IMG/VR virus record: IMGVR_UViG_3300023202_000142 | Location: 1 to 64,000 of that record | Length of the DNA stretch: 64,000 nucleotides | DNA from: a virus | Strand: one strand, 5' to 3' | Shown: positions 3,194 through 60,273 of the stretch, one piece after another | How the letters are laid out: the number at the start of each line of letters is the position of its first letter | Position numbering within the stretch: position 1 is the stretch's first letter | Made by a program: the position numbers and the translations under genes | The notes under the pieces: generated by a model | The model's database searches: none | The model's input: only the letters and a program-made list of their open reading frames with translations | Told to the model about the DNA's origin: nothing

Positions 3194-4507
3194 ATGTCGA
3201 ATCTGGTCGAGTCGGTCGATAAGCTAATAGAGGCGGTCCAGAAGCCTGCCATTCGAGAGGCGGGTCGACGTGTTCAGTTTGTGTTTCCCTACGACAGAGA
3301 CCTGAAGAACCGCCTGAAGAAACTCGGGGCAAAGTGGGACTCCGATAAGAGGGTCTGGTGGGCTGGCCAGCGTCATCGGAACCTCGATAAGATGCGGAAG
3401 GCGTTTGAGAGTTGGGCGGAGGGGTACAGGAAAGCTGATCGAGTCGAGTTCGAGTTCGAGTTCGATGCCAAGCTAAAGGACGCCTTGAAGTCCCTTGGCG
3501 CCAAGTGGGATCCGAAGAACAAGGTCTGGTGGGTGAAGTCGAACCACCGCAACATCGCAAAGATGCGGGTTGCCTACGATCGAGGGATGAAGCGCATCAG
3601 GCGCCAGCGACGTGCCAAGGACAACTTCAAGGACGAAGCGGACCGAAGACGAAGCGAGGGGCTCGCGATCAAGGTCCCCTACGACATCAGGAAGGTCGCA
3701 AAAAATGCTGGGGGGATCTGGGATAACCGCAAGAAAGTGTGGTTGATGCCAGACGAAGAGTCTAAAGAGCTGGTCCAGGGGGAAATCCAGAAGTTCCGCG
3801 AGGAACAACGGAAGGTGGAACGACAGCGCAAGCAGCGCGAGATCAAGAGGGAGTTGGGGTTCGACCCCAAGGATTTCGATTCCATCACCCAGGTGTCCAG
3901 AACCAAGCGAGATCGGAGGTCTGAAGGGGATGTCTTCATCCTCAGTAACACGCCAAGGAACAACAAGGCGTACGGCCTCAAGAAAGGTGATGCTGTATAT
4001 GTAGAGGGTGTCAGGTCGGAATACGTTTCTGATGATTTCTCGTCATTTGGTGGCCCGCCTGGCTGGGAGGATGGGTGGAGACACGTTCTCTACATTCGAC
4101 CCGCAACCGATGAAGAGGCTGGCCCGGTTCTGTCTCGCCAGAAGAAGAGAGAGGCAAGGAACGATGCGCTCAAGCGGGTCGACGAGATTGAGAAGAGGAT
4201 CACGAAGAAGGGGGAGATTCCGCGGGACTACCCGAAAGAGTCTGGCATCAGGGTTTTGGCCCGCAATGAACGGCTTCGTCTGTACGGAGGCGGTTCCTGG
4301 TTTGCCATCACTCGGAAATCGATCTGGTTCATCAGGAACAACGGAGCCGATGGCGATAACTGGGCGAGGAACAACGTCAGGACCGGCGGTGCTGGGGCGA
4401 TCGGCTGGCGCATCAAGCGCAACGAGAAATTGGCCGACGAGATGAAATCGCTTCACGCCGTGATTCACGATGACAATCCCGAGGACTATCAGGTCAGGCC
4501 CGGGTAG
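3194..4507 (+). CDS. tagged protein with three DUF5710-type repeats, 437 aa
   Basis: The start MSNLVESVDKLIEAV is chosen over a longer upstream frame because it sits 6 nt behind a good -10. Residues 1-14 fit the IDxLLEA tag family. Three repeats follow at about 26-60, 84-118 and 157-186, each with a basic-aromatic LKKLGAKWDxxxxVWW core as in DUF5710. A basic coiled stretch and an uncharacterised C-terminal half follow. It is the only plus-strand gene in the left arm and overlaps the convergent gene by 14 nt. Function unknown; DNA binding or an injected role is a guess. Confidence 0.8.
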   Translation: MSNLVESVDKLIEAVQKPAIREAGRRVQFVFPYDRDLKNRLKKLGAKWDSDKRVWWAGQRHRNLDKMRKAFESWAEGYRKADRVEFEFEFDAKLKDALKSLGAKWDPKNKVWWVKSNHRNIAKMRVAYDRGMKRIRRQRRAKDNFKDEADRRRSEGLAIKVPYDIRKVAKNAGGIWDNRKKVWLMPDEESKELVQGEIQKFREEQRKVERQRKQREIKRELGFDPKDFDSITQVSRTKRDRRSEGDVFILSNTPRNNKAYGLKKGDAVYVEGVRSEYVSDDFSSFGGPPGWEDGWRHVLYIRPATDEEAGPVLSRQKKREARNDALKRVDEIEKRITKKGEIPRDYPKESGIRVLARNERLRLYGGGSWFAITRKSIWFIRNNGADGDNWARNNVRTGGAGAIGWRIKRNEKLADEMKSLHAVIHDDNPEDYQVRPG

Positions 4508-39592: not shown

Positions 39593-40007
39593 GGAGTTCC
39601 TGGAACTGGCCGAGGAGGCCGCACCCTTCGAGCCCTGTGTCGGTTCAGGGTACTGCTGCAAGAAGGTGCCGTGTCACGTCGCCTTCGAGGTCCTCGGTGA
39701 CGTCGAGGCGCCCTGTCCTGCCCTGGTATGGTCCGATGACGACGATCGTTACTACTGTGGCGTCGTTCTCGATTCCGAGCGCTATGGCGTCGACTCCGAG
39801 TTCGTGCGCCGCAGTCTAGGCATCGGAGCTGGCTGCTGTTCCTCGATGAACGATGACCACCGCAAAGCCATCTCGCCGTACCTTTCCGACCCCAGAGTCC
39901 AAGACCTCATCGGTCTCGACAAACGTAGAGCCTACATGCGGGGACTGTCGACCTGGGCAGACGAGGTCCGTGAAGAGACCAGTTGCAGCACTGACCAAAC
40001 TGTGTAA
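39576..40007 (+). CDS. cysteine-rich protein, 143 aa
   Basis: EPCVGSGYCCKKVPCHVAFE, then CPAL, YYCGVV and GAGCCSS resemble the cluster-type cysteine pattern of YkgJ-like proteins and a short phage family I recall. Metal binding likely; function unknown. Last gene of the P10 operon. Confidence 0.74.
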   Translation: MNLTTEEFLELAEEAAPFEPCVGSGYCCKKVPCHVAFEVLGDVEAPCPALVWSDDDDRYYCGVVLDSERYGVDSEFVRRSLGIGAGCCSSMNDDHRKAISPYLSDPRVQDLIGLDKRRAYMRGLSTWADEVREETSCSTDQTV

Positions 40008-40016
40008 TCTGTGCAC
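39983..40016 (+). promoter_or_regulatory. promoter P11, leaderless start
   Basis: TTGCAG, 16 nt, TAATCT (40005-40010), then GTGCAC and ATG. The same TnnTCT-GTGCAC-AT arrangement recurs at 45199 and 51126. Confidence 0.65.
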
Positions 40017-40727
40017 ATGGAAAACTACACGCTGATTTGCCCGAAATGTCATCACGACGAGGTCGAACTCGTTGACGTCCAGCTCTCCGAACCCAACGCT
40101 TTCATCGGCATGATGAAGTGCCGGGACTGTGGGCACATCGCTGCCGAGTCGGTCTTCGAGGAGGCGCACAGGTCAAGTCGTGCTGCGGCGATACTGGACC
40201 AGTACAACATTCCACCATGGGCTTCCTCTGAGGTTCGTAAGCTGCGCATGTTCTTCATCGCCAACATGTTGTCGGAGGCCGAGTTCGAGCGCGAGGTGCA
40301 GAAGCATCGTCGTGAAGAGCCGTCGGTCCTGGACCCCCGGCCCGGGCTCGTGATGAGTCCCAGGATCTACGATGAGATAGCGGACAAGAACCGCTACACC
40401 GATGTCAGCAAAGAGGAACTGGAGCGCATCAAGGCGGAAGCCGAGAGGGTCGTAGAGGCCGAGACGGGTCGAAAGCCGGACCGCATCGATGCCGTCGCAA
40501 GGGGGCACTGCGTCAAGATCAACGTCCAGTACCAGGACCCTACTCCGGTCGATCAAATCAAACTGACGCACGTCCAGGTCAAGCCAATCGAGATATCGAG
40601 GGCCGAGGTGGAGAAGATGCTGGGGATGTTCGAGGAGGTTCGTGAGTGCCTCGATGAGATACAGCAGAAGATGGGTGAATATGAGGGCCTGATGCGCAAG
40701 GCGTTGGGCTACGGAGGGGATGGCTGA
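40017..40727 (+). CDS. zinc-ribbon plus coiled-coil protein, 236 aa
   Basis: The ATG at 40017 begins 6 nt after the -10. Residues 1-40 form a zinc ribbon (LICPKCHHDEVEL ... CRDCGHIA). The middle is helical, and the C-terminus is a coil (SRAEVEKMLGMFEEVRECLD). First gene of the P11 unit. Confidence 0.78.
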   Translation: MENYTLICPKCHHDEVELVDVQLSEPNAFIGMMKCRDCGHIAAESVFEEAHRSSRAAAILDQYNIPPWASSEVRKLRMFFIANMLSEAEFEREVQKHRREEPSVLDPRPGLVMSPRIYDEIADKNRYTDVSKEELERIKAEAERVVEAETGRKPDRIDAVARGHCVKINVQYQDPTPVDQIKLTHVQVKPIEISRAEVEKMLGMFEEVRECLDEIQQKMGEYEGLMRKALGYGGDG

Positions 40728-41311
40728 TGGAAGACGTAAGACGCAAACCCATGGAGTGCGACAAGCATGGCGTCACACTGCACTACTTCGTCGACTACCG
40801 CACCGTCGGGGGCGAAGAGTTGGAGTGGTGGTCCTGTGAGACCTGCCGAAGCCTTGGTCGTCTGCGAAACACGGCATCCAAGACCCTCTCCGCGCCAGTG
40901 AGAAGAATCGGGCAGTACTTTGGCGACCTCAACGAGCGGATGTACTTGCGCCTCGTTGAGGAGCTTTCTGTTGGTACTGCGATGGTTTCCCCCCAGGAGG
41001 AACTGGATGGCGAGACCTTCTGGGCCAAGACGATGAAGTGCGGAGCCGTGAACATCGGCAAAGCAATGGTCGCAGTGTTCGCCAGAGACGCCCGTCCGTC
41101 TTTCGAGGAGCACATCTGGGGCCTTCTGAGGCCCGTGTATGCCAAGTATGCCGAACAGGGGTGCACCATCCATCCCTACATCGTTGTTAACCCTGGCGGC
41201 CTCCTGGCGGCCCACAGGCCCGATCTGTGGACCGACACGGTGATCCCCTTTGGTCACGGTGACGCTGACGAGTTCTTGCTGACAACCCGGTTCGCTGCGA
41301 CAAAACCATGA
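40727..41311 (+). CDS. hypothetical protein with N-terminal zinc site, 194 aa
   Basis: MECDKHGVTLHYFVDY and WWSCETCRSLGRL make a Cys/His site; the rest is alpha/beta with no motif. Stop overlaps the next start. Confidence 0.76.
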   Translation: MEDVRRKPMECDKHGVTLHYFVDYRTVGGEELEWWSCETCRSLGRLRNTASKTLSAPVRRIGQYFGDLNERMYLRLVEELSVGTAMVSPQEELDGETFWAKTMKCGAVNIGKAMVAVFARDARPSFEEHIWGLLRPVYAKYAEQGCTIHPYIVVNPGGLLAAHRPDLWTDTVIPFGHGDADEFLLTTRFAATKP

Positions 41312-41490
41312 CTGAATCTGTGATGAAGCCCTTTCACGTTCCGCCCAAGAAGTCGTCGATCACGCTTCCGCATCTCTGCAACGGGGTTCGGAGGGATCTC
41401 GAAGCCCAGAAACCGCAGACGGTGGTGAGATGTCGGCGCTGCGGGGTCACTGCTCGATTGATCTGGCACAACCCCGAGGAGGAAGAGTGA
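41308..41490 (+). CDS. small zinc-knuckle protein, 60 aa
   Basis: MTESVMKPFHVPPKKSSITL; HLCNGV and VRCRRCGVTARL supply Cys residues for a knuckle. Acidic end carries the ribosome site of the next gene. Confidence 0.72.
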   Translation: MTESVMKPFHVPPKKSSITLPHLCNGVRRDLEAQKPQTVVRCRRCGVTARLIWHNPEEEE

Positions 41491-41780
41491 GCGAGACCAA
41501 AGCAAAATCGACATCCGTTATCCATCTGGTCGTCGAGGTCGACAGCGAAAGTGTCTGGGGTGACGACTGCACCATGGCACAGGTCGCCAAACAAGCCCGT
41601 GAAGCCGCAGCGGAGCACTCCAGGCGGCTCGTCAGGCGCATCCTCGACAATGCTGAGGGTGAGTATGGTTATCTGCGTATTCGCCAGGTTACCGTGGAGC
41701 AAGAGATCAAGGTCAAGCTGATCTCAGGCCGCTCCGAGACCTATTCGGTCCGACAGGGGGATCTGTGTACGTCGGACTGA
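41487..41780 (+). CDS. hypothetical protein, 97 aa
   Basis: GTG start behind GAGGAGGAAGA (MSETKAKSTSVIHLVVEVDS). Ferredoxin-like strand/helix order predicted. No family known. Confidence 0.74.
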   Translation: MSETKAKSTSVIHLVVEVDSESVWGDDCTMAQVAKQAREAAAEHSRRLVRRILDNAEGEYGYLRIRQVTVEQEIKVKLISGRSETYSVRQGDLCTSD

Positions 41781-42016
41781 TGATCGTCGCACTACTTACC
41801 GGCTGGTGGTTCATTGTTCCGACCTGGACCGCTCACGCCTTTCTTCAAGCACTTCACCGAGCACTGGACAGGGTCATCGCATGGGCGAGTTCACCGTTAA
41901 GAAGTTCGCTGAGGCCCTTCTGGGCAAAGAGGAAGGCCAGAAGGTCATCCAAGAGGCCCGTGACAACCATCAGCGCCTCCTTCACTGTGCCGTACCCCAC
42001 GACTTCGAGCTGGTAG
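41765..42016 (+). CDS. possible small membrane protein, uncertain 3' end
   Basis: GTG start at 41765; LMIVALLTGWWFIVPTWTAH is a clear membrane helix. The frame runs far into the next gene, and its last 40 residues look unnatural. The true protein may be shorter through another one-base error. Confidence 0.4.
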   Translation: MYVGLMIVALLTGWWFIVPTWTAHAFLQALHRALDRVIAWASSPLRSSLRPFWAKRKARRSSKRPVTTISASFTVPYPTTSSW

Positions 42017-42264
42017 ACACCCGTCCATCGAAGGCCAGGTGCAAGAAATGCGGTGGGATCATCAGCGGTTCCGCGATGACCTGGTACAACCGGGGCCTAC
42101 GACACGCCGGGATCCAGAAGAATCCATACCACTGCGAGGACTGCGGTAAGCTCATCGATGCCGACAACCCCGAGGAAGCCGCCTGGAGCGGGCCTGACGG
42201 TGCTACCGTAGTATGTCTGGAGTGCGAACCGGACTGGCGAAAACCGTCCGACGATCCCCCTTGA
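41881..42264 (+). CDS. zinc-ribbon protein, 127 aa
   Basis: MGEFTVKKFAEALLGKEEGQ starts a helical segment; CKKCGG, CEDCGK and CLECE give two zinc sites in the C-terminal two thirds. Ends just before promoter P12. Confidence 0.75.
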   Translation: MGEFTVKKFAEALLGKEEGQKVIQEARDNHQRLLHCAVPHDFELVDTRPSKARCKKCGGIISGSAMTWYNRGLRHAGIQKNPYHCEDCGKLIDADNPEEAAWSGPDGATVVCLECEPDWRKPSDDPP

Positions 42265-42289
42265 CATGTGAACAGCGTGCACATAGCGT
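42261..42289 (+). promoter_or_regulatory. promoter P12, consensus -35
   Basis: TTGACA, 17 nt containing GTGCAC, TAGCGT. GGGAGAG lies before the ATG at 42314. Among the best matches to a sigma-70-type promoter in the window. Confidence 0.75.
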
Positions 42290-42313
42290 GGAAAATCTGA
42301 ACAGGGAGAGATC

Positions 42314-43240
42314 ATGAAACACCTGATCAAGGCTGTGAGCTACCGGGTGCGCAACGATGCTGACATCGTTTGGCAGTCCGACATCAAGAACGATGAGGTT
42401 CTGGTGCGCTTCGACGCTCCCAGGGATGCCGAGTTCGCCCAGGAGGTCATAACCACTGCCCTGAGCAACTTCGGCAACATGCCGATCATGATGTCTCCCA
42501 AGGACCTCAGTCGGCTTGAAGACACGATTCGGGGACTGATGAGCACGCCGCTGCGCGGCATTCACTTCAAGCTGTACGAAGACGGTACGGTTCGCGCTGA
42601 CTCCTGGGTGTTCGCTCAGGGCAGGGTGCCCCCGGAGATGCTTCACCGGGAACGAAACATCATCGAATCGATCGCCAACACCATTGGGGCCGAGGTGCCC
42701 AAGGACAACTACGAGGAGAAGGTCATGGAACCAGAAGACGAAAACACCCCCACGCGCCTACAGAAGGCGCGCAGCGCCGCAAAAGAGACCGGCGGCGACG
42801 CCAAGGATGCCATCATGGAGGGCCTTGAAGAGGCGGCTGTGATGGCGGGCTCCGAGGGCTTCGTGAATATCGTGAAGGAAGCGTTCAGCGACAGTTCGAT
42901 CTTCAGGGCCTTCCTCGAAACCGAGAAGGGTGAGCAGACCGCGTTGCTGATGAGCGGCCTGGTCATGCACTGGGCAGCCACGGCCGGCCTGGTGCCGGAG
43001 TCCGGGGCGAACCAGGTCAAGCGTGTCACGAAGGTCATGATGCGCAACTCGACGCGCACCTTTGCGCTGCCTCAATTCCGGTGGGCCAAGGACATGGCGT
43101 TCAAGATGGTGAAACACGCCATCAGCCTGAAGGTTCCGTCGACCCCCGAAGAGATGATGTCGTTGGCTTACGAAGAGCCCGCCGATGCCTCGGAGTTCGA
43201 GGTCGAGGAACGCGAGACCGAAAAGGTCCCCGCCAAGTAG
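42314..43240 (+). CDS. hypothetical protein behind a strong promoter, 308 aa
   Basis: MKHLIKAVSYRVRNDADIVW opens an alpha/beta domain (about 1-130). A charged linker (MEPEDENTPTRLQKARS) and a helical domain (145-285) follow, with an acidic tail. Not recognised. Its own strong promoter and size suggest an abundant early protein, which is inference only. Confidence 0.78.
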   Translation: MKHLIKAVSYRVRNDADIVWQSDIKNDEVLVRFDAPRDAEFAQEVITTALSNFGNMPIMMSPKDLSRLEDTIRGLMSTPLRGIHFKLYEDGTVRADSWVFAQGRVPPEMLHRERNIIESIANTIGAEVPKDNYEEKVMEPEDENTPTRLQKARSAAKETGGDAKDAIMEGLEEAAVMAGSEGFVNIVKEAFSDSSIFRAFLETEKGEQTALLMSGLVMHWAATAGLVPESGANQVKRVTKVMMRNSTRTFALPQFRWAKDMAFKMVKHAISLKVPSTPEEMMSLAYEEPADASEFEVEERETEKVPAK

Positions 43241-43246
43241 GGCACC

Positions 43247-43585
43247 ATGAAGGTTCGCAACAAACAGTGCAAAGCGTGTCCCTGGAGGGTCTCAACGGAT
43301 CCCGATCGAGACATCCCGGGCGGTTATGACCGAGAACTTCATCGCGGTCTCAGCGAGACAATCGCGGAGCCCGCGACCCTCAACACCTCGTCAGGCGGGA
43401 TGATGGCATGTCACGAGTCGAACCCCGATGGCGGTGAGTACCCCTGTGTTGGATGGCTCTGGCACCAACTCGGGCGAGGCAATAACCTGCCCCTTAGACT
43501 TCTGGCACTGCAGGGCCACTTCGACGACATCGAGGTCGACGGTCCCCAGCACACCTGTTTCGAGGACACGCTACCCGATGACTGA
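43247..43585 (+). CDS. DUF6283-like cysteine protein, 112 aa
   Basis: CKACPWRVSTDPDRDIPGGY, then MMACHESNPDGGEYPCVGWL match the Cys pattern and WR/GWL motifs of DUF6283, a small family frequent in actinophages. Four cysteines probably bind metal. Confidence 0.75.
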   Translation: MKVRNKQCKACPWRVSTDPDRDIPGGYDRELHRGLSETIAEPATLNTSSGGMMACHESNPDGGEYPCVGWLWHQLGRGNNLPLRLLALQGHFDDIEVDGPQHTCFEDTLPDD

Positions 43586-43925
43586 CTCCGTATTCAGTAG
43601 CAGAACACCGTTCAACATCGGCGGACAGCATTATGCGCTCGACGAGATGGAGAACGCTCCCCTGGCATCCGTCGGAGCAACCCGGCAGGGCGAGATCCCC
43701 GAAGAACTCACCGTCCCCGACTACATCTCAGAAGATGTCGCCGAGGAGTGGTTGAGGGGCTACGTTGCCGCTGCTGCAAGCGATGGCCGCTGCCCCCGAT
43801 GCCTGAGCTGGAACGTTAAAGAGAGCCGCTTCAGAATGCTCAGGGGCGCCGAGGAATGGAAACGAAACTGTCAGGACTGCAGCCTCCTCTCAACCTTCAC
43901 CAAAAGAACCAAGGGCAGGCGATGA
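43578..43925 (+). CDS. hypothetical protein with C-terminal zinc ribbon, 115 aa
   Basis: MTDSVFSSRTPFNIGGQHYA; CPRCLSW and CQDCSLL near 73-102 form a ribbon; basic end (KRTKGRR). Unassigned. Confidence 0.74.
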   Translation: MTDSVFSSRTPFNIGGQHYALDEMENAPLASVGATRQGEIPEELTVPDYISEDVAEEWLRGYVAAAASDGRCPRCLSWNVKESRFRMLRGAEEWKRNCQDCSLLSTFTKRTKGRR

Positions 43926-44185
43926 ACTATCTTGATCTGGTGCCAGAGTCGTTGCGCGGTAAGACGTGGAGCGCTGCAGGCATGACACTTACTGACACCC
44001 ACCTCGCCAAAGTGGTCGAGAATCTTCATGTCGGAGATCCGCCTTACCGTGGCGTCGATATGCAGCGCAGCGGCCGCCGCTTCGATCGAGCTGCCCAACT
44101 GCTGAGGAAGGCCGGCGTCATCGAGTATGACCGCCACAAGACTCGCTGGGTCCTCAGTGAAGCCACGCTGGAGCGGATCGAGTAA
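43922..44185 (+). CDS. putative winged-helix protein, 87 aa
   Basis: MNYLDLVPESLRGKTWSAAG followed by AAQLLRKAGVIEYDRHKTRW resembles a helix-turn-helix with a wing ending in WVLSEATLERIE. DNA binding is inference from layout. Confidence 0.6.
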   Translation: MNYLDLVPESLRGKTWSAAGMTLTDTHLAKVVENLHVGDPPYRGVDMQRSGRRFDRAAQLLRKAGVIEYDRHKTRWVLSEATLERIE

Positions 44186-44406
44186 TGAGGAAGGGTGAGG
44201 TCTACAGGTGGGCCCAGAAGAACGACCTGGATTGGTCCAGCGAGTTCTGTGACGGCCTTCAACGCGCTCTGGCCCACACCGGCGAATTGCGATCTGTACA
44301 GCTAACCATTCTGCGGTCGGCCTTCCAGGTGTTCGGTGGCGACACCTTCAGGGACGCCCAGAAGAAAATGCTGCAGCTCCGCAAGTTACGAGAAGAGCCG
44401 GAGTGA
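44185..44406 (+). CDS. small helical protein, 73 aa
   Basis: MRKGEVYRWAQKNDLDWSSE; basic helices ending KMLQLRKLREEPE. Start shares one base with the previous stop (TAATG). Confidence 0.72.
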   Translation: MRKGEVYRWAQKNDLDWSSEFCDGLQRALAHTGELRSVQLTILRSAFQVFGGDTFRDAQKKMLQLRKLREEPE

Positions 44407-44415
44407 ACTGCCATC

Positions 44416-44427
44416 GCACCCGGGTGC
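44416..44427. promoter_or_regulatory. palindrome GCACCCGGGTGC
   Basis: Exact 12-bp palindrome 9 nt after a stop codon and about 90 nt before the next start. Also at 1154, 17212, 27429 and 53686. Candidate operator. Confidence 0.5.
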
Positions 44428-44473
44428 AGAATCTGTCGCGCCGGACCAGCTCTGCACTTGGTTCGACGTCTGA

Positions 44474-44520
44474 CATCATGCATGATGGGGCGGCCTACAG
44501 TGACCCCGTGAGGAGTAGAG
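44474..44520 (+). promoter_or_regulatory. promoter region with palindrome CATCATGCATGATG
   Basis: The perfect 14-bp palindrome is at 44474-44487, followed by TACAGT about 13 nt later and GTGAGGAG before the ATG at 44521. The palindrome may be the operator of this unit. Confidence 0.5.
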
Positions 44521-44916
44521 ATGTCAGACGTGACCACAATGATCGAGAGCTTCCTCGGAGACGGCGGCCTCGCCCTGAACGAGGCGGCAAAGGCCAGCCC
44601 GGTGAGGACTAAGGTCAAAATGGCAAAAGACCTGGAGACTCGCCTCCTGAAGCCCCTCAAGAAAGAACTGAACTGCCTTGGGTGGACGGTGCCTGGAGCC
44701 GAAATCGGATTCATCAACAAGGGCGGGTTCACGCTCGACCTCAAGGTCAGCTACCCTTTTCATCCCGAGTTCCCGAAGGACCCCAAAAAGGTCGCCGGAG
44801 AACTGGAAGCGGCTGTCAAGAAGGCGCTTTCTACGCGGGGCCAGATGAAGATGGATGTGCTCAGCCGGTATGAGAAGGATCGCACCGCAAGTATCGACAT
44901 CGCGTTCTGGAAGTGA
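44521..44916 (+). CDS. tag-bearing hypothetical protein, 131 aa
   Basis: MSDVTTMIESFLGDGGLALN is a divergent member of the N-terminal tag family and resembles the start of the gene at 63704 (MANLTTTLMENFL). The body has a helical segment and a beta-rich domain ending SIDIAFWK. Located just before the tagged HicA-like gene. Confidence 0.75.
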   Translation: MSDVTTMIESFLGDGGLALNEAAKASPVRTKVKMAKDLETRLLKPLKKELNCLGWTVPGAEIGFINKGGFTLDLKVSYPFHPEFPKDPKKVAGELEAAVKKALSTRGQMKMDVLSRYEKDRTASIDIAFWK

Positions 44917-44919
44917 TCC

Positions 44920-45162
44920 ATGAACTTGATCGACCGAATCGATGCCCTCCTGGAGATGCGGCCACGCAAGGTACGCAAACGCCTGCGTAAGGCCGGCTGC
45001 AAGGAGCTGCGCCAGAAGGGCTCCCATCTCAGGGTGAGCTGCCCGCCGGACGACCGGAAATCCACGATCCCTGTCCACAAGGGCAAGGACATCAAGAAGG
45101 GCACCCTGAAATCGATCGAGAAGGACCTCGACATCGACATCGATGGTGACGGCAGACCCTGA
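44920..45162 (+). CDS. HicA-like mRNA-interferase-fold protein with N-terminal tag, 80 aa
   Basis: Residues 1-12 are the tag (MNLIDRIDALLE). Residues 16-75 match HicA/YcfA: KVRKRLRKAGCKELRQ, KGSHLRVS with the catalytic-type His36, then TIPVHKGKDIKKGTLKSIEK. HicA toxins are small dsRBD-fold RNases. No HicB antitoxin gene adjoins. With the tag, a packaged and injected RNase-like effector is an attractive but unproven reading. Confidence 0.78.
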   Translation: MNLIDRIDALLEMRPRKVRKRLRKAGCKELRQKGSHLRVSCPPDDRKSTIPVHKGKDIKKGTLKSIEKDLDIDIDGDGRP

Positions 45163-45175
45163 CGCACCTCCCGGG

Positions 45176-45210
45176 TAGACGACCCGCCTTGTCGTGTGTA
45201 GTCTGTGCAC
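45176..45210 (+). promoter_or_regulatory. promoter P13, leaderless start
   Basis: TAGACG, 17 nt, TAGTCT (45199-45204), GTGCAC, ATG at 45211. Parallel to P11 and P14. Confidence 0.6.
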
Positions 45211-45990
45211 ATGGCACGACCTGACATCGAAACCGTTCGAACAGTCTGTTCAGACCCTGGCTGTGAAGCCGAGTACACCGACGTCGTTCAGTACGTCTCA
45301 CCCCTGAACCATCTATGGGAGTGCTCGAAATGCCGACGCATCGGGCACACCGTCGACACCTCTGGGATCGAGATCGTCAGTGGCCCTGATGCGGTCTGGA
45401 AGCGACCGCTGTTATACCTGGACCGGCCTGAAGCCCTCCTCGCATCCGTGAGACACTTCAACAGAGCCAATGAGCCCCGCAAGGCGGACATCCTCGCGGA
45501 CCTGCTTCCCGACACCTGGCTGATCGAAAGCAACCACGCCAAACCACCCGAGGAAAGGTATCGGTGTGATTTTCCCAGACACGTCAAGGACGCCCTGGTA
45601 ATGCCGGTGCGGACAAAGTCCGGCGACACCTGGTCACTAGTCGTCTGGAGACCCAATGATGTTCTCCGTGGCGCCTATCTCGTCGACAAGGCTCCGACAC
45701 CTGAGCGCAACGAGGTCGTCGAGGCAGTTCCGCCACTGAAGAAACCATGGACGCTCACGTTCAAGCGTCCGTCGAGGAGCCCGTCACCCTACATTGAAGA
45801 ATGGCTCAACAAATACCCTAACCAGCGCGGCTGGGGCGATCATCTGGCACTAGAAAAGCACCGTGAGGCCGTCAAAGACATTCTGGAGTCCGGCGTTGAG
45901 CCCGACGGGGTTACCGGGGTCTTGCTCAGAAAATACGGAGGTGCACCGAGCCCCACAGCGATTGAGGCGTTTATCAGGGAGCTGACGTGA
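45211..45990 (+). CDS. hypothetical protein with N-terminal zinc site, 259 aa
   Basis: VCSDPGCEAEYTDVVQ and WECSKCRRIGHT form a zinc knuckle at 10-45. The rest is alpha/beta with LADLLPDTWLIESNHAKPPE and a helical C-terminus. N-terminal layout resembles the protein at 40727 (CETCRSLGRL). Confidence 0.76.
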   Translation: MARPDIETVRTVCSDPGCEAEYTDVVQYVSPLNHLWECSKCRRIGHTVDTSGIEIVSGPDAVWKRPLLYLDRPEALLASVRHFNRANEPRKADILADLLPDTWLIESNHAKPPEERYRCDFPRHVKDALVMPVRTKSGDTWSLVVWRPNDVLRGAYLVDKAPTPERNEVVEAVPPLKKPWTLTFKRPSRSPSPYIEEWLNKYPNQRGWGDHLALEKHREAVKDILESGVEPDGVTGVLLRKYGGAPSPTAIEAFIRELT

Positions 45991-46250
45991 GGGACGAGAG
46001 CAAGTTCAGAAGCCCATTTGGGCCGATTAAGTTGCCTGACCAGGCAATGAAGCCTTGGGGAACGGTCTTCTATCCCGACGGCTCGAAACGGCGCGTCTGG
46101 ATGATTTACGCTGCCTCCGGGGTGCCACTGGGATTCGCCTACCAGGTCTTTTGCAATCTGATCCCCCACGAACTCACCGAGATCAAGCCAATGGAGCAAC
46201 CCGTTGGTACTGTGTTTTTCGAGAACTACACGAGGAACCATGATCTCTGA
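45987..46250 (+). CDS. hypothetical protein, 87 aa
   Basis: GTG start overlapping the previous stop (MRDESKFRSPFGPIKLPDQA). Strand-rich with aromatic residues. Unassigned. Confidence 0.72.
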   Translation: MRDESKFRSPFGPIKLPDQAMKPWGTVFYPDGSKRRVWMIYAASGVPLGFAYQVFCNLIPHELTEIKPMEQPVGTVFFENYTRNHDL

Positions 46251-46401
46251 CTGGTGGCATACCCTCACTGAACCCCCGGTCCTGTACGATATCGGGACAT
46301 TGAGTCACCCCCTGCTGGTATGGGCATGGACGTCTCAGGAGAAGATGCGCTGGGCGCTATTCATCGAAAAACGCTACCCCTCGAAACGGAGGTTTGATTG
46401 A
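46240..46401 (+). CDS. small protein, 53 aa
   Basis: MISDWWHTLTEPPVLYDIGT; Trp-rich with a hydrophobic segment (LSHPLLVWAWTS) and basic end. Bridges two genes by overlaps. Confidence 0.68.
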   Translation: MISDWWHTLTEPPVLYDIGTLSHPLLVWAWTSQEKMRWALFIEKRYPSKRRFD

Positions 46402-46829
46402 AGCTCGTGATCGCAGGGTCCAGAGGTATCGTTTCACACGACCACTGGTCGAAGCTGATACAGCTCATCGAAGAACTCGCCGAACTGGCCGACTCCTACC
46501 CTACCGAGGTCTTGCACGGCGGCAACATGCAAAGCCCGGATCGATTCGGGAACGAGTTGGCCGCGTCGTATGACTGCCTGGAAGTCGTCATCGCACCGGA
46601 CTACGATGCCGCGCGACGTAAGGGCATCCCCACCAAAGCAGCACCACAGATTCGCAACAACCAGCTCGCCGACCGCGGCGACGCCCTGGTTGGTCTCTGG
46701 GATGGCCAGTCACCGGGCACCGAGTCGATGATGAAGCGGTTTAAGAAAGCGAGGAAGCCGTACCGGGTCTGGCGCGTCGACAACCACGAGATTCTCCGGT
46801 TCACTGATGCCCAGGTGAGTTTGTTTTGA
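46398..46829 (+). CDS. SLOG/DUF2493-family protein, 143 aa
   Basis: Predicted nucleotide- or NAD-derivative-binding Rossmann-like SLOG domain. It shows MKLVIAGSRGIVSHDHW (GSRG), EVLHGGNMQSPDRFGNELA and DALVGLWDGQSPGTESMM. TTG start with TTGA overlap. Phage SLOG proteins may sense or process conflict-related nucleotides; the exact role is unknown. Confidence 0.82.
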   Translation: MKLVIAGSRGIVSHDHWSKLIQLIEELAELADSYPTEVLHGGNMQSPDRFGNELAASYDCLEVVIAPDYDAARRKGIPTKAAPQIRNNQLADRGDALVGLWDGQSPGTESMMKRFKKARKPYRVWRVDNHEILRFTDAQVSLF

Positions 46830-47074
46830 GCGATGACGGAGACATTCTGGTCCACGGCCTCGGCTTGACGCGCGACGAACTACGCGCCGGGATGCTCCGA
46901 CTGAAGATGTCGGGATGGCCGATTCATGACATCAGGGCCAGGATGGCATGCGACGGCAACCTCAGCCCTTGTCTCGGCTCAAGGGTCGCGGCAGAATGGG
47001 CCAACTGCAACGGAAAAGCGGATGATCATGAAGAGCAACGAGTTGACCGAGCGAATCGATCAGTTCCTGAGTGA
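46826..47074 (+). CDS. hypothetical protein, 82 aa
   Basis: TTG start by TTGA overlap (MSDDGDILVHGLGLTRDELR). The segment LRLKMSGWPIHDIRARMACD could be a helix-turn-helix. Overlaps the start of the next gene by 47 nt. Confidence 0.66.
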   Translation: MSDDGDILVHGLGLTRDELRAGMLRLKMSGWPIHDIRARMACDGNLSPCLGSRVAAEWANCNGKADDHEEQRVDRANRSVPE

Positions 47075-47410
47075 AGCCGGGATGCCCGTCTACTCGGACA
47101 CCCTCTGTCCGCAGAGGAGTTCGCTGAGAGGCTTTACGCGATCGAGGACTGGCTCACCAGCGCGGCGAGCGATGTGAAGGCGATCCGAAAGACGATTGAA
47201 GGGAGCCGACGGTCCGCGAAGCGAAATATCAAGCCGAATGATCCTCCGTTCAAGAAGTTCTGGGCAGGCGTCCCCGTCAAGAAAGTGTTCCAGCGGTTTG
47301 CGTTGATCGGGGCCAAAAACACCCGCGGTGACCTCAAGAAGGCCCGCGAGGCATACGATGAGCTGCTTAAGGACTTCCAGGCCACCATGAAGCACTTCAA
47401 CATCCGATGA
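47028..47410 (+). pseudogene. tag-bearing protein gene interrupted by a one-base frameshift
   Basis: MKSNELTERIDQFLSEAGMP gives the tag and reads to YSDTL near 47106. The coding continues as SAEEFAERLYAIEDWLTSA ... ATMKHFNIR in another frame to 47410. One extra C in CACCCTCTG would restore about 128 codons. Helical basic product. Confidence 0.65.
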
Positions 47411-47949
47411 GCCTCATCGAAACCATAGATGTCCTCCTGGAGCGCGACGATTACTTCGACGACCCCAGTTTCGTCTGGGCCACCTTGCTCGACAACGCGT
47501 TCGACACCCCAATGCGATCGATCCGGCAATCGGTAAAGCACCACCCCTTCGCACACCGTCACGCCTTCGCCATGATGGTGCGCAGCGACGAGCACTGGGA
47601 GCGCTTCAACTACGAAGAGGATCTCATCCTTGGCGCCCTGCTTCATCTGGCAAAGAAGCACAGACCGCTCAAGAAGTCCGTCAAGGCCATCAAGAAAGAC
47701 CTGCGACTGGGGAGCAAGAGAGCTTCGAAAAGCGATGTCGAGGAGCGCACCGGCATGTCGCCCCGTGAATGGGAGCGTGAGTACGAAAAATACATCGATA
47801 AGTGGATGGACCGCGAAGACGACGGCGTGCTCCGCGAGCTATCTATCTCCCCTGACAACATTGATTCGATCGGTGACCTGGAGCCCGACCAGGCGCGCAA
47901 GGCCAGAAAGTGGATCACCGACTACCAGAAGAAACAGGGCTGGAGATGA
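47407..47949 (+). CDS. tag-bearing helical protein, 180 aa
   Basis: MSLIETIDVLLERDDYFDDP carries the tag. The body is helical and highly charged (KKSVKAIKKDLRLGSKRASK). Start overlaps the previous stop by 4 nt. No enzymatic motif; could be an internal head or DNA-binding protein by composition. Confidence 0.76.
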   Translation: MSLIETIDVLLERDDYFDDPSFVWATLLDNAFDTPMRSIRQSVKHHPFAHRHAFAMMVRSDEHWERFNYEEDLILGALLHLAKKHRPLKKSVKAIKKDLRLGSKRASKSDVEERTGMSPREWEREYEKYIDKWMDREDDGVLRELSISPDNIDSIGDLEPDQARKARKWITDYQKKQGWR

Positions 47950-48317
47950 ACGTTGTAGGCGAGGCTGAACGCCTTCTCAGCGAAGCAGAAGACGATCTGC
48001 CGAGTCTTGAAGACTGGATCAACCGTGACCCCTTCTCGCGGGGAAAGAAGCGCCTGCAGCGCGAGAGAAAGGCCCTGAAAAAGAAGTGGGAGCGTGAGGT
48101 ATCCCGTGATCGCGCGCGCCTTCGAGGCGCAAGAAACGTCGTCGACAAGATCGCCGGCGATATGGGGCCGGAATGGAAGGACGAGGGCTACACTGACGCC
48201 GAGGTCGAATCGACAGCGTTCGGCACTGCGCACGACATGAGACCCGACCTTCGCTGGTGGTTGATCTGGAACCAGCACCGTGAAATCCCGCTGAAGTCGA
48301 TCCCGCTTCGCTGGTGA
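47946..48317 (+). CDS. tag-bearing basic protein, 123 aa
   Basis: MNVVGEAERLLSEAEDDLPS is a variant of the tag. Residues 35-75 are strongly basic helix (GKKRLQRERKALKKKWEREV). Ends one base before the convergent gene. Confidence 0.75.
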   Translation: MNVVGEAERLLSEAEDDLPSLEDWINRDPFSRGKKRLQRERKALKKKWEREVSRDRARLRGARNVVDKIAGDMGPEWKDEGYTDAEVESTAFGTAHDMRPDLRWWLIWNQHREIPLKSIPLRW

Positions 48318-48902
48318 CTACAGCGGTCGCATCCCCATCGACACCCTGAACTGCGAGATGAACTGCTTCACTGTGGGGATTTTCGCTCCGGTCTGATTGC
48401 GCAGCACCATCGCCGCCTTCATGAGGTCGTCAGCCTTGATGTGCTTCCTGGCCTTCTTGACGACCGTCTGCGGCCACAGTCGATTGGACTGGTCACTGGG
48501 GTGCCACGGGACGCCGCTGACGGTCTCCCACAGCAGGCTGGAGTTCTGGACGATGTTGCGGCCGGTCAGCAGGCGCTTGGCCTTCGATACCTGGACAACC
48601 TTCGCTGACGACAGCTTGATCGAGTCAGCGTGCCAGATCACTTCCTCGGGGTAGACGACCTGGGGATCCTGCTTCGTGGTGAAGATGACCGCGAAATTCC
48701 GGCTCGTCGCACGGCCGAGCTTGGTGGTTGCTACGCCGCCTACGAACTTGCCGCCCTCAGCCACCGCGTAGACCCCGTTCACGATGCTCGATTTATCTAG
48801 TCGTCGGGAGGACGCGATGGCCTCAGCTCCGACCTGGTCGGAAAAGTGGACGTAACGGACCTGGCGCGCTTCAAGCAAGATGTCAACGGCCTCAACGAGC
48901 AT
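48318..48902 (-). CDS. putative ADP-ribosyltransferase-like protein with N-terminal tag, 194 aa
   Basis: The ATG at 48902 (MLVEAVDILLEARQVRYVHF) is preceded by GGAGAG and puts the tag at the N-terminus; longer frames are rejected. HFSDQVGAEAIASSRRL (His19), NGVYAVAEGG (Tyr45) and PEEVIWHADSIK (Glu86/Glu87, Asp93) follow. The order resembles HYD1-type and related ART folds. T4 Alt, a packaged ART, is the functional parallel. Fold call is tentative. Confidence 0.6.
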   Translation of the reverse strand: MLVEAVDILLEARQVRYVHFSDQVGAEAIASSRRLDKSSIVNGVYAVAEGGKFVGGVATTKLGRATSRNFAVIFTTKQDPQVVYPEEVIWHADSIKLSSAKVVQVSKAKRLLTGRNIVQNSSLLWETVSGVPWHPSDQSNRLWPQTVVKKARKHIKADDLMKAAMVLRNQTGAKIPTVKQFISQFRVSMGMRPL

Positions 48903-48942
48903 GTCGGCGATTCTCTCCGACAAGCCCCGGAGACGCAACAGG

Positions 48943-48971
48943 TTGCTGTCTGCTGTCCCGTTGGGTACGTT
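48943..48971 (+). promoter_or_regulatory. promoter for the 49007 gene
   Basis: TTGCTG, 17 nt, TACGTT. Divergent from the ART-like gene. Confidence 0.5.
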
Positions 48972-48980
48972 CGGGGGACA

Positions 48981-49013
48981 GAGAAGACCATGCAAGGGAG
49001 AAGACCATGCAAG
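48981..49013 (+). repeat. tandem duplication spanning the start codon, with a 14-codon upstream ORF
   Basis: GAGAAGACCATGCAAG occurs at 48981 and again at 48998. The first copy's ATG (48990) opens a 14-aa frame ending at 49034, overlapping the real start at 49007 in another frame. It may modulate initiation. Confidence 0.6.
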
Positions 49014-49633
49014 TACGCGACAAGACGTCCGTAACGATCGACATCAGCGTCGAAGCTGGTGCTGGAGAAGACCTCGAAGTGGACATCCTGGAGGACAAGA
49101 ACCAGGAGCCGAGGATCGAAGCAGGCAAAGTTGTCGAGACTGGACTGCCTCCGCTCGATACCCTGGGGCGGGTAGCCAAGGTGCTCCGAAATGAGGAGGC
49201 CATGGCATTTCAGCGAGTCAGGCCGGGCACTTCCACCACCTTCGAGGTCGAGCCAGGTGACTCGATCCTGTTGACCCGCAACGGGAACAAACGAGTGCAC
49301 GTGCACCAGCTTGGGGAACATCAGTTCCTCGTTACGCGCGATGAACTCAAGCGTGTCATCGGCATGGTTGCCGAACTGAAGCCCGACGCCCTACAGCTAC
49401 TCCTGAAGCTCATCGAGCCCGCGGAGTTCTCGATGGAGCTACTGCGCTTCGCCATCGAGCAGGCGCGCGAAGGTGTCGAGCCCGACGAGCCCGACGAAGA
49501 ACGCTATGCTCGTTTCGCGCGCGAAGCGTTGCAGCGATCAGGTGGAGAGAACAACATTCTCCACAGCATGGCCAAGAGCATCGATGAAGCATCGAAACGC
49601 GATCCGCTGGAGCCGCCTAGCTTCGACGAGTAG
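49007..49633 (+). CDS. hypothetical protein, 208 aa
   Basis: MQVRDKTSVTIDISVEAGAG starts behind AGGGAGAAG. Beta-rich N-terminal half (TSTTFEVEPGDSILLTRNGN), then an acidic helical half with DEPDEERYARFAREALQRSG. No tag and no known domain. Confidence 0.75.
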   Translation: MQVRDKTSVTIDISVEAGAGEDLEVDILEDKNQEPRIEAGKVVETGLPPLDTLGRVAKVLRNEEAMAFQRVRPGTSTTFEVEPGDSILLTRNGNKRVHVHQLGEHQFLVTRDELKRVIGMVAELKPDALQLLLKLIEPAEFSMELLRFAIEQAREGVEPDEPDEERYARFAREALQRSGGENNILHSMAKSIDEASKRDPLEPPSFDE

Positions 49634-49671
49634 GGGTCGATTCGATCGGCCGCTGGGGGTAGGATGCCAGC

Positions 49672-50394
49672 ATGAATATTATCGAACACATCGACGCGCT
49701 GCTTGAAGCCAAAGTTCGCTGGAAGTGGCCGACCAAGAAGCAGCTCGTTGATGAGTTCGAGACCGAGCCCTGGATCCGATCGCTGTTCGGCGGTGACATT
49801 TCCTGGGTTCGAGACGGGACCTACGACGACAGTTCCGCGAAGAGGTTTTTCCTCGATCACCTCAAAAAGGTCTCAAAGACCAAGGTGTTCAAGAAACCAC
49901 CGCGCGGGATCGAGTTCCACAAGGCCGACTCGATCGACAAGCTGGCGCAGAAAACCGAGTACATGGGCAAGGACGTCCAGTCATTAGCTGATGCGATGAA
50001 ACGCGGCGGCAGTCTCCCCATGCCGATCCTCGTCAAGTCCGGTGGCACCTACAAAATGCTCGGTGGTCGCACCAGGTTCGGTGTCGCATCGATTTTAGGA
50101 ACCCCCGTGAAAGCAATTGTCGTTGACCTCAAGAGGCTCGCCGGTGCCCTTCAGGAATGGGCTCGCGATGAGTTCATTCACAACCCGAAAGGGATCATAG
50201 CGAAGGCGCCTGTGACTGCCGAGGAGCGCGAGGAGTGGTACGACTGGGTCTGGGGCGGCCAACGCGGCCCGATGCCCCTGGAGGGGCTAGAGAAGCGCTG
50301 GGACCTCAGTTTCTCCAAGGTCTGGGCGAGCCTGTTCGCACGCCAGTTCGACAAGATGGATCTCAAAGAGACGTTCAAAAGCAAGAGGGGCTGA
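49672..50394 (+). CDS. ParB-like (ParB/Srx-fold) protein with N-terminal tag, 240 aa
   Basis: Tag at 1-13 (MNIIEHIDALLEA). Residues about 98-152 read KGKD-type helix, LPMPILVKSGGTYKMLGG, then RTRFGVASILGTPVKAIVVD, the strand-GGRTR-helix core of ParB-like NTPase or nuclease domains. A helical C-terminal half follows. A TAGGAT box 6 nt before the ATG suggests a leaderless mRNA. Possible DNA- or nucleotide-acting injected protein. Confidence 0.75.
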   Translation: MNIIEHIDALLEAKVRWKWPTKKQLVDEFETEPWIRSLFGGDISWVRDGTYDDSSAKRFFLDHLKKVSKTKVFKKPPRGIEFHKADSIDKLAQKTEYMGKDVQSLADAMKRGGSLPMPILVKSGGTYKMLGGRTRFGVASILGTPVKAIVVDLKRLAGALQEWARDEFIHNPKGIIAKAPVTAEEREEWYDWVWGGQRGPMPLEGLEKRWDLSFSKVWASLFARQFDKMDLKETFKSKRG

Positions 50395-50783
50395 TGCTGG
50401 TTGAAGACGTAGATCGTCTGCTGGAGGCAAGGGAATACGCTTACGGGGCCCAGAACAGACCTGTCGCAACAGCTCAGGTGCCTGATGGCTGGATCGACAC
50501 CCGCAAGGATCGCCGCTTCAGGCATGGTGTGGTTGTCTACAAGAAGCCGCTGAGCGATCGCGAGGTCAGAAACTTCCAGCTCACCCCGTTGATTCCGCGC
50601 CGCGACCTTGCAAAACAGATCGCCCAAGAGATCGACTACCCCGAAGCCTACGTCGAGATCTACGATGACGATCCCCGGGAATTCGCGTCGATGCTACAGA
50701 TGCTCGACCTGCCAGATGCCAGAGCGATCGAAGGGGACAATGACCGGAAATTGCATGCCATGATCATCAAAGAGCTGAAATGA
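50394..50783 (+). CDS. tag-bearing hypothetical protein, 129 aa
   Basis: MLVEDVDRLLEAREYAYGAQ is a clear tag, very close to that of the ART-like protein. The body is alpha/beta (RFRHGVVVYKKPLSDREVRN). Start overlaps the ParB-like stop. Confidence 0.76.
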   Translation: MLVEDVDRLLEAREYAYGAQNRPVATAQVPDGWIDTRKDRRFRHGVVVYKKPLSDREVRNFQLTPLIPRRDLAKQIAQEIDYPEAYVEIYDDDPREFASMLQMLDLPDARAIEGDNDRKLHAMIIKELK

Positions 50784-51106
50784 ACCTCAACCCCGGAATT
50801 CGTCGTCTCGTCGCCTGGCTCAACGAGCACAACTTCAAGACCATTGATTCCGGTGACGGTGCAACCCATGACCACGAGTGCGACCGCGATCATCCCTACG
50901 TTGTCATCCAGCTCGAAGCCCCTGCGTTCATCGAGTGGCACGCCAGTCGTCTGAAACAGCTCCTCGAAAACGAGGGGATCGAATTCGATCCGGCGCAACC
51001 CCACGGGCCCTTCCTGCAGGCAAACTACAGTCCCGTGGACGGTTACGCGTTCCTCGAAGTGCTCAACCTGACCGACGACATGATCTGGCCCGCAGAAGAC
51101 GCGTGA
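50780..51106 (+). CDS. conserved phage-type protein, 108 aa
   Basis: NPGIRRLVAWLNEHNFKTID then SGDGATHDHECDRDHPYVVI is a signature I recall from many actinophages, function unknown. Alpha/beta fold expected. Confidence 0.77.
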   Translation: MNLNPGIRRLVAWLNEHNFKTIDSGDGATHDHECDRDHPYVVIQLEAPAFIEWHASRLKQLLENEGIEFDPAQPHGPFLQANYSPVDGYAFLEVLNLTDDMIWPAEDA

Positions 51107-51109
51107 CAG

Positions 51110-51140
51110 CGTTTCAGCACATGTGTAGTCTGTGCACATC
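51110..51140 (+). promoter_or_regulatory. promoter P14
   Basis: TGACAG, 16 nt, TAGTCT (51126-51131), GTGCAC, then ATC and ATG at 51141. Confidence 0.58.
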
Positions 51141-51542
51141 ATGGGTACGGACCTCTACTATCACATCGAACGCCAACTCGAAGACGGCTCATGGGAGACC
51201 GTCGACTGGCGCGATTACGACCTCGATCTGATCCCGCGCGCCTACGTGTTCTACGGTATCCTGGATGGTACCAGACACGATCTACCGGAAGACCTGAACC
51301 CCATCGTGCCTGAGCCGCGCGGATGGCCACCGCATACCAGAAAGGGTCGTGGGCTGACCTGGGATCACATGTACGGTCACTCCTGGGTAACGGCTGACGA
51401 GATCCGTGAATGGCCAGGCTGGGCTCATGGGTGCAGGAACGACAATCAAACATATCGAGAGCGCGCCGGCGGTATTGCTGATGCGGTCATCGAAGTGCTG
51501 GAGAAAAATGCGCCAGCTCGACTCTACTTTTGCTACGACTAA
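51141..51542 (+). CDS. conserved phage-type protein, 133 aa
   Basis: MGTDLYYHIERQLEDGSWET, then RAYVFYGILDGTRHDLPED and PEPRGWP resemble an actinophage family starting MGTD, of unknown function. Stop and next start share TAATG. Confidence 0.76.
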   Translation: MGTDLYYHIERQLEDGSWETVDWRDYDLDLIPRAYVFYGILDGTRHDLPEDLNPIVPEPRGWPPHTRKGRGLTWDHMYGHSWVTADEIREWPGWAHGCRNDNQTYRERAGGIADAVIEVLEKNAPARLYFCYD

Positions 51543-52357
51543 TGAACGAAGCCGAACTTTGCGCACTCTTCGCCGAAGCTGCCCGCCAGGACGGTTGGAC
51601 GGTCTACCCCGAGGTCAACGACTGGGATCTCGTGTTGGTCTGGAACAACCCGGACGGTCGACCCAAGGCCGCACTGCAGAGGTATGGTCGCAGCGATCTC
51701 GGGTTCGCCGTCCGGCAAGGCGACATCATCGCAATCGAAGCAAAGTCTCGCGCGACTACCGCAGCACTGATGCAGGCGCACAAACGTCAAATGCCACCGG
51801 CCACGACGGCGCGAACCAGGAAGGGCCCGGACTTCAAAGCCGTCCTGGTGCCAAAGGCGCCAAAGGGGTTCAAATATGTTGCCGGTGAGATGGAGCTGGG
51901 CGTCTTCACGTCGCACAACTACGAAGAGCAGAAGCCTGGTGGACGCCGCTGGAAGTGGACGGACCCCTGGCGCGTCCCAATAGAGCCGGCCTTTCAGCTC
52001 CGGCTAACGGAGCGCTGGGCAGGCAAGATGTGGCTACCCCCGGTGGTCCCCGAGAACGACGCCGGGGTGCCCTCGCCTACATCGTTGACCCCCTGGCGGG
52101 TCAAGGCGTTGAAGATATGCGCGCTCCTGCGCACGCGTGGTGGCGTGACCTCCGCGGACTTCAACGAGATCGGTATCTCGATCACGAGGTGGCGCAACAA
52201 CGGTCGTTACTCATGGCTTGTCGACTCCGGCGAGCGCGACGGGAATCGCTACATCTACGTTTTGCCAGACGAACTGCCTGATGATTTCCCTGACATCGGC
52301 TGGGAGGCCGAACGCGATCTGATCTGGGAACAGCATCTCGCGCAAGAAGAGGAGTAG
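51542..52357 (+). CDS. putative PD-(D/E)xK endonuclease with C-terminal winged helix, 271 aa
   Basis: VYPEVNDWDLVLVW (Asp29) followed by GDIIAIEAKSRATTAALMQA (Glu66-x-Lys68) fits the D...ExK active site of restriction-endonuclease-like folds. Residues about 190-260 (VKALKICALLRTRGGVTSAD) look like a winged helix. A DNA-cleaving or repair role is plausible; no methylase partner adjoins directly. Confidence 0.6.
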   Translation: MNEAELCALFAEAARQDGWTVYPEVNDWDLVLVWNNPDGRPKAALQRYGRSDLGFAVRQGDIIAIEAKSRATTAALMQAHKRQMPPATTARTRKGPDFKAVLVPKAPKGFKYVAGEMELGVFTSHNYEEQKPGGRRWKWTDPWRVPIEPAFQLRLTERWAGKMWLPPVVPENDAGVPSPTSLTPWRVKALKICALLRTRGGVTSADFNEIGISITRWRNNGRYSWLVDSGERDGNRYIYVLPDELPDDFPDIGWEAERDLIWEQHLAQEEE

Positions 52358-52358
52358 C

Positions 52359-52431
52359 TTGACACTGTGCAATACGTGCACTAATTCTGGGTGCGAGGAG
52401 ATCACCCCACTCCCGCCCCCTGGAGGTAGCC
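52359..52431 (+). promoter_or_regulatory. promoter P15 and leader
   Basis: TTGACA (52359-52364), 17 nt with GTGCAA and GTGCAC, TAATTC (52382-52387). A short GGAG...CTCC leader stem and TGGAGGTAGCC precede the ATG. Confidence 0.75.
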
Positions 52432-52668: not shown

Positions 52669-52682
52669 GCCGAGAGGATTCA

Positions 52683-52913: not shown

Positions 52914-52990
52914 CGGTGTGCAATCCGTGCACACATTACACTTGCCCGGGACGGGTCACCCCGCCTGTCCCATCACCAGAGGAGGTAGCG
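52910..52990 (+). promoter_or_regulatory. promoter P16 and leader hairpin
   Basis: TTGACG, 17 nt with GTGCAA and GTGCAC, ACATTA. The leader hairpin at 52948-52971 (GGGAC...GTCCC, loop with CACCCCGC) is followed by AGAGGAGGTAGCG. The plus-strand twin of P1 and P6. Confidence 0.7.
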
Positions 52991-53410: not shown

Positions 53411-53419
53411 GAGGTAGAG

Positions 53420-53647: not shown

Positions 53648-53685
53648 ACAAGGGAGTGATCATGGTGCACACTGCGGTCCCTTTC

Positions 53686-60000: not shown

Positions 60001-60273
60001 ATGACTCTGACAGAACACGTGGACCTTCTCCTCGAAGCGCGCATGTCGTCGCGGGAGCAGAAGCTAGTCGGTAACATGTTGGTGGGCATGGAGATGGAAG
60101 AATACGGTGGCAACACCGAGCGCTTCTACCGCTGGATCGAGCGGAAGACGGATGAATTCCTGGAGGAACTCTACGCAAGGCTCGAAGGTAACGTGCGCGA
60201 AGCCGACCGGAAGAGGCTAACATCGCTAAAGGCCAGGGAGTACATTGCATTGCACAACATGGCGCTAACCTAG
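60001..60273 (+). CDS. tag-bearing helical protein between the tRNA clusters, 90 aa
   Basis: MTLTEHVDLLLEARMSSREQ is one of the best copies of the tag. The rest is helical (RKTDEFLEELYARLEG). TAGGGT at 59974 and TGGAGG before the ATG give it its own promoter and ribosome site. Confidence 0.78.
   Translation: MTLTEHVDLLLEARMSSREQKLVGNMLVGMEMEEYGGNTERFYRWIERKTDEFLEELYARLEGNVREADRKRLTSLKAREYIALHNMALT

Follow-up and report, generated by a model that had tools for sequence, protein, structure and literature searches.

In phage T4, internal proteins carry N-terminal propeptides of 10–19 residues that target them to the head, and the prohead protease gp21 cleaves after L/I-X-E, as described in passages of PMC9026906; for DarB of phage P1, the first 30 N-terminal residues suffice as the signal (excerpt of PMC9024508). 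MuF-fused toxins of temperate phages, some of them predicted ribonucleases (RNases), are proposed to load into the head in the available sections of PMC5576092, and the name HicA is absent from the text of that paper. HicA is otherwise known as one partner in addiction or defence modules, where an antidote nearby is required, and among the 14 HicA contexts of Gerdes 2024, none with a head gene or a leader was noticed in the portion at hand (PMC10865869). Here we report a hicA-like gene in the virus record IMGVR_UViG_3300023202_000142 of IMG/VR (185,324 bases; G000 among the related records), of which bases 1–64,000 were analysed as the window, i.e. the whole stretch under study. The HicA encoded there is probably packaged in the phage head, and by analogy we rather favour the whole chain, namely that an antitoxin-less HicA RNase would be packaged through a T4-like capsid targeting sequence (CTS), trimmed in the prohead and injected. 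The elements concerned are as follows.

44920..45162, + strand: hicA-like gene, 80 amino acids (aa), its ATG start and its stop both lying within the interval
44920..44955, + strand: leader MNLIDRIDALLE, residues 1–12, proposed CTS
44950..44958, + strand: proposed prohead-protease site L-L-E followed by M, residues 11–13, cut after E12, from its likeness to the T4 motif
44965..45135, + strand: HicA domain, residues 16–72, by Pfam PF07927 and the structure model
45019..45027, + strand: GSH, residues 34–36, with His36 being His24 of the predicted mature protein

The 80-aa open reading frame (ORF) is a member of the HicA family by profile, fold and catalytic motif. PF07927 (HicA_toxin) matched it well over the curated cut-off (60.2 bits versus 27, E 2.1e-16), PHROG 353 ‘toxin’ matched it at E 1.2e-17, and by PF07927 it is the single HicA in the record. 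Gly34 and His36 were unchanged throughout an alignment of 24 phage and bacterial rows. An AlphaFold2 model built from the 24 aligned sequences (mean predicted local distance difference test (pLDDT) 82.6) displayed an alpha-beta-beta-beta-alpha core (helix 15–24, strands 28–33, 36–41 and 46–51, helix 60–70), i.e. a fold like that of double-stranded RNA (dsRNA)-binding domains, with the leader as a separate helix 3–11 of low confidence (pLDDT about 55). In the VIA structure comparison, the best solved match was 1whz (Z 9.6), followed by toxin chains of HicAB complexes, namely HicA of B. pseudomallei (6g26_F, Z 9.3, root-mean-square deviation (rmsd) 1.6 over 60 residues), the E. coli chain 6hpb_A (Z 8.6, rmsd 1.6, 57 aligned), 5yrz_B of S. 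pneumoniae (Z 8.0) and 4p78_C (Z 7.7). The catalytic Gly and His of the model align with those of 6g26_F at an offset of 12, and residue 0 of 6g26_F pairs with residue 12 of the model, which puts His36 at position 24; the important histidine is His23 and His24 in two bacterial HicAs and His36 in S. pneumoniae HicA, according to an extract of PMC11594946. Among named phages, tblastn of the 80-aa protein hit nine records at identities of at most 40%, and no near DNA match was found for window positions 40000–60000. The first-pass annotation had placed a HicA core with GSH and the segment IPVHKGKDI at residues 16–75 directly behind a putative packaging tag and had proposed structure prediction as a check; both motifs are present in the protein, the PF07927 match and the modelled fold agree with that placement, and the leader ends only a few residues before the domain begins.

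The leader is acidic (isoelectric point (pI) 4.3) and the rest of the protein basic (pI 10.3). Its back-translated pattern NTNRTNGANNNNRTNGAYNNNNTNNTNGAR had nine exact matches in the record, eight on one strand and one on the other, and none in the backward control; with one mismatch allowed, nine matches were counted in the window versus 0.05 expected, and 12 in the record, while four related records had no more than one apiece and the controls had none. These excesses argue against chance. Seven of the nine exact matches coincide with an ORF start, and six ORFs of more than 40 aa starting with the leader were found in the window versus none in 30 dinucleotide shuffles. When about 2,400 ORF starts of the window were ranked by the likeness of their first 12 residues to those of HicA, leader ORFs took the top three places. 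The leader codons show a third-codon-position excess, which argues that the leader is translated. The parts behind the leader have no family in common; thus, as with the CTS of T4, a short N-terminal leader ending in L/I-x-E is shared by unrelated proteins of one genome.

The matching head machinery is encoded in the record as well. The prohead protease is gp21-type (PF03420, 52.8 bits versus a cut-off of 27), with a long additional region in the same ORF, and the capsid protein is gp23-type (PF07068, 214.6 bits versus 24.4). The protease ORF (L012:1510-3216, at about 112.2–113.9 kb of G000) joins the protease domain to a long coiled-coil-like region, which suggests a protease-scaffold fusion. 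All 19 capsid-protein rows of the phage group, near-duplicates included, have [LI]xE at one common N-terminal column, which presumably corresponds to the position of T4 gp23 cleavage. In HicA itself, the distance from [LIM]xE to the catalytic His is 24 residues in six of six tagged types and in none of the 17 bacterial rows, with a strict L/I-x-E at this distance in G000, L011, L018 and L048 (here and below, G numbers denote virus records, L numbers the loci or sequence stretches compared). Cleavage at this site would therefore leave a canonical HicA that starts as an ordinary one does.

Scanning IMG/VR with the 80-aa protein, small alignments and the capsid protein yielded further phage HicA loci, namely L011, L016–L018 (one type), L048–L050 (one type), and L046 and L047, the last two from records of 186 and 198 kb. 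PF07927 was found in six of 24 records examined, most of the 24 being fragments. For comparison, 25 HicA loci of bacterial genome contigs were collected, of which 17 entered alignment A3 and eight were left out as near-copies, truncated or start-less (L061, L064, L065, L066, L068, L070, L073, L076). Leader and HicA occur together in five further sequence types; across all six, the residues before the core read MNLIDRIDALLE, MRLSDELYAALYE, MRLSEELYGAIFE and MRPSEELVQAIFE, each followed by M, and MGLSDVLAGTMFE followed by SAEEMAE and M, and MGLSSIIARSLFE followed by AQEMAE and M. The gene lies about 150 bases downstream of the capsid gene in L011, directly downstream of it in L048 (the capsid-protein end being recognised by eye), and between a head ORF and a head-tail adaptor (PHROG 211), overlapping the latter by four bases, in L018; it lies far from the capsid gene in G000, L046 and L047. 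The ORF that follows hicA in L046 and L047 starts at the hicA end, with a leader that fits MxLSxELxE or comes close to it. The loci thus differ among related phages, and what lies beside hicA varies, yet a leader accompanies HicA throughout. The kind of leader is lineage-specific: that of MNLIDRIDALLE is essentially confined to G000, and MxLSxELxE-like starts occur in G004, G008, G015 and G025. The HicA leader stands out among ORF starts of its own genome in three of five sequences (the G000 window, L084 of G004, and L048). That HicAs of related phages have a leader ending in [LIM]xE, several of them in the head gene cluster, lends strong indirect support to packaging.

Two observations were made in passing at these loci. 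L054 holds a longer ORF with a C-terminal HicA (L054:4353-5207, + strand), in which LTE stands before the core, the join reading RLTE then MSARE, and the N-terminal part is ParB-like by eye. In L011, a T4-type portal gene (L011:215-2512, + strand) is split by an intein, PF07230 and PF14890 both being over cut-off.

The leader also marks further ORFs of the window.

3194..4507, + strand: leader ORF with three DUF5710 stretches, by leader and DUF5710 match
47407..47949, + strand: leader ORF, MSLIETIDVLLE
48318..48902, − strand: leader ORF, MLVEAVDILLE
49672..50394, + strand: leader ORF, MNIIEHIDALLE, with weak ParB-like similarity (E 0.087)
50394..50783, + strand: leader ORF, MLVEDVDRLLE, a stand-alone DarA C-terminal domain (PF18789, 30.9 bits versus a cut-off of 27)
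60001..60036, + strand: leader MTLTEHVDLLLE of a further ORF, by the leader pattern

The product of 50394–50783 matches darA of phage P7, which is annotated as ‘released from the phage upon host infection’. Elsewhere in the record, a small basic ORF with the leader-like start MSEVVARIDAFLSEE shares bases with two others, namely with the end of one in the head cluster and with the start of the one for the prohead protease, a location that would suit a prohead core protein. In related stretches, ORFs like SAM lyase and DUF3293 with leader-like starts were seen (L083:1600-2256, − strand; L054:1011-1754, + strand), PF23780 scoring 28.2 bits against a cut-off of 28 in L083 and under cut-off in L054. 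If the leader-plus-site code can be read in this way, the injected cargo of an uncultured phage group would be listable from sequence, i.e. DarA-type, SAM-lyase-type, HicA and others.

The steps that we infer, i.e. packaging, trimming, injection, RNase activity, leader control and target of HicA, are modelled on T4 and P1. The hicA product would be a virion cargo of the HicA RNase type, synthesised late with its leader, and residues 1–12 would serve as the CTS bringing it into the prohead core; the gp21-type protease would then cut after LLE to release a 68-residue canonical HicA with His24. Trimmed HicA would stay in the head with the DNA, enter the next cell at injection, and cut host RNA, or RNA of the defence response, within the first minutes. 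The producing cell may be spared by late timing, by sequestration in proheads or by masking through the acidic leader; HicB would not be needed because HicA would be made late, taken into proheads and perhaps held inactive by the leader until trimmed. The T4 late-promoter octamer TATAAATA was not found in the window. A bolder version, which we regard as doubtful, makes the acidic propeptide HicA's own ‘antitoxin’: it would both target HicA to the prohead and mask its basic RNA-binding face, the protease would activate HicA only in the sealed head, and each particle would deliver an antitoxin-free RNase before phage gene expression.

A lone HicA raises the question of its antitoxin. In the record, no match was obtained with the HicB families PF15919, PF05534 and PF21748, nor with PF15970, for which the control was equally silent; among related records, PF15919 was found in none of 10 and PF21748 in none of 11, G000 included. 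Beside bacterial hicA relatives, a HicB-type family (PF15919 or PF21748, E ≤ 0.001, several matches being under the curated cut-off) was found in 13 of 14 loci tested, L063 being the one without; the 14 are those of 16 bacterial loci whose neighbours were run against Pfam, L077 and L079 having been left out for their only broken-looking frames. The ORFs adjoining hicA up- and downstream matched no HicB family by Pfam, in line with the first-pass annotation, which had noted no antitoxin-like neighbour and had named a co-expressed HicB elsewhere in the genome as one thing that would overturn its reading. Accordingly, the locus does not qualify as a HicAB type II toxin–antitoxin (TA) module for the HicB families tested. 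Directly upstream, however, lies a candidate for a divergent partner.

44521..44916, + strand: ORF of 131 aa that ends three bases before hicA, with no family match and not HicB by Pfam

This ORF is probably cotranslated with hicA, and antitoxins diverge fast, so hicA could belong to a module for addiction or exclusion that resembles HicAB and whose antitoxin has gone unrecognised, the leader being incidental; a conserved ORF near hicA in L046 and L047 (136 and 131 aa, 60.7% identity) points the same way. We consider such a hidden module quite unlikely, given that the tested HicB families were not found and that the search for relatives of the 131-aa ORF gave four candidate stretches, none of them confirmed, and no relative of this ORF beside other phage hicA genes. 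Its single-sequence model is of low confidence (pLDDT 67; best Foldseek E 7.8e-3, best VIA Z 7.8), and HicB is not among the structure matches listed for it. A ribbon-helix-helix (RHH)-like antitoxin near hicA in L046 and L047, seen by eye, was set aside: Pfam gave no match, and a tblastn search of the window and of the compared loci of other phages turned up no homologue.

HicA might instead be packaged but not act as an RNase toxin. With its very basic core (pI 10.3), of a dsRNA-binding type of fold, it might be an internal protein that binds DNA or RNA, or might act as a decoy for a host HicB or another defence protein, as would fit the anti-restriction-like character of other leader cargo (DarA, SAM lyase) and the T4 internal proteins, which are DNA-associated and, where known, anti-defence (passages of PMC3012670 and PMC9391042); this we judge unlikely, as Gly34 and His36, which never vary among the 24 rows, are not obviously needed by a mere binder. 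That HicA acts as a late intracellular RNase without being packaged, its leader holding it at the prohead for turnover, as a pro-region or as an assembly hook, would suit the place of hicA inside the head gene cluster of relatives, but seems very improbable because like leaders stand on a DarA-type domain and a SAM-lyase-like ORF, cargo most sensible after injection. Least credible of all is translation mainly from the internal Met13, which would give an ordinary untagged HicA with the leader as a relic: Met follows the site E in all six types at the His24 distance, but no Shine-Dalgarno sequence at usable spacing was seen by eye before the Met13-type ATG in the sequences inspected, and the leader codons have their third-position excess. 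Several observations nonetheless count against a packaged, trimmed HicA. The same conserved Met could mark a start codon, either an old one or an internal one; in L046 and L047, what stands at the 24-residue distance is M-A-E rather than strict L/I-x-E; hicA and the capsid gene are about 69 kb apart in G000; and the pattern matches at 57450 and 78677 follow the nearest ORF start by about 43 and 27 residues. Moreover, in L082 (G008) and L083 (G015), the leader of HicA is not set apart from the other ORF starts of its own stretch, although the [LIM]xE sites are kept there, and strict MxLSxELxE matches exclude the HicA ORFs themselves.

Should HicA be injected as proposed, a lone phage-loaded HicA would act before phage transcription, attacking host RNA or blunting a response based on RNA, and the phage would face the question of surviving the production of its own toxin.

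Two features of the window lie apart from this question. An 87-aa ORF 0.8 kb behind hicA (45987–46250, + strand) has a stretch resembling residues 80–111 of a relative's gp23-type capsid protein (47% identity, E 3.9e-4), i.e. it is a free-standing capsid-protein fragment, which might be a decoy for capsid-sensing defence. Within a tRNA gene cluster, ARAGORN predicted a tRNA with a four-base anticodon (caaa) at 59459–59531 (+ strand).

Compared with the CTS-bearing T4 proteins IPI–IPIII and Alt, the locus has a like short N-terminal propeptide (12 residues here versus 10–19 in T4; passages of PMC9026906). It also shares with them the L/I-x-E site, a gp21-type protease and gp23-type capsid gene, and one leader on unrelated proteins, but the cargo here is a HicA domain, whose packaging is predicted from sequence. 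The leader sequence itself is presumably unlike that of T4. P1 DarA and DarB are likewise head proteins with an N-terminal signal, and a DarA domain carries the leader here, but they are large anti-restriction proteins and not TA toxins. HicAB type II TA systems, gp90/gp91 of phage Adephagia included (excerpt of PMC11373665), have the same toxin domain with catalytic Gly and His, whereas here no HicB was found and an N-terminal leader is present. Polyvalent proteins (Iyer et al. 2017, PMC5512222, in whose text HicA and HicB are absent) resemble the locus as phage conflict domains thought to be packaged, but are multidomain by definition, and the present protein has one domain in 80 aa. In our literature searches, whose coverage leaves out most subscription journals, neither a packaged HicA nor HicA as CTS cargo was found. 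MuF toxins come close in being toxin domains proposed as head cargo, but they require a MuF domain and belong to temperate phages, mostly of Firmicutes (available sections of PMC5576092); the 80-aa ORF has no MuF domain, PF07927 being its sole Pfam match at E ≤ 1. Since RNase-type toxins had thus already been proposed as head cargo in those sections, the first-pass expectation of a new use of this fold holds in a narrower form: what appears new, judged from sequence, is HicA as the cargo of a T4-type capsid targeting leader.
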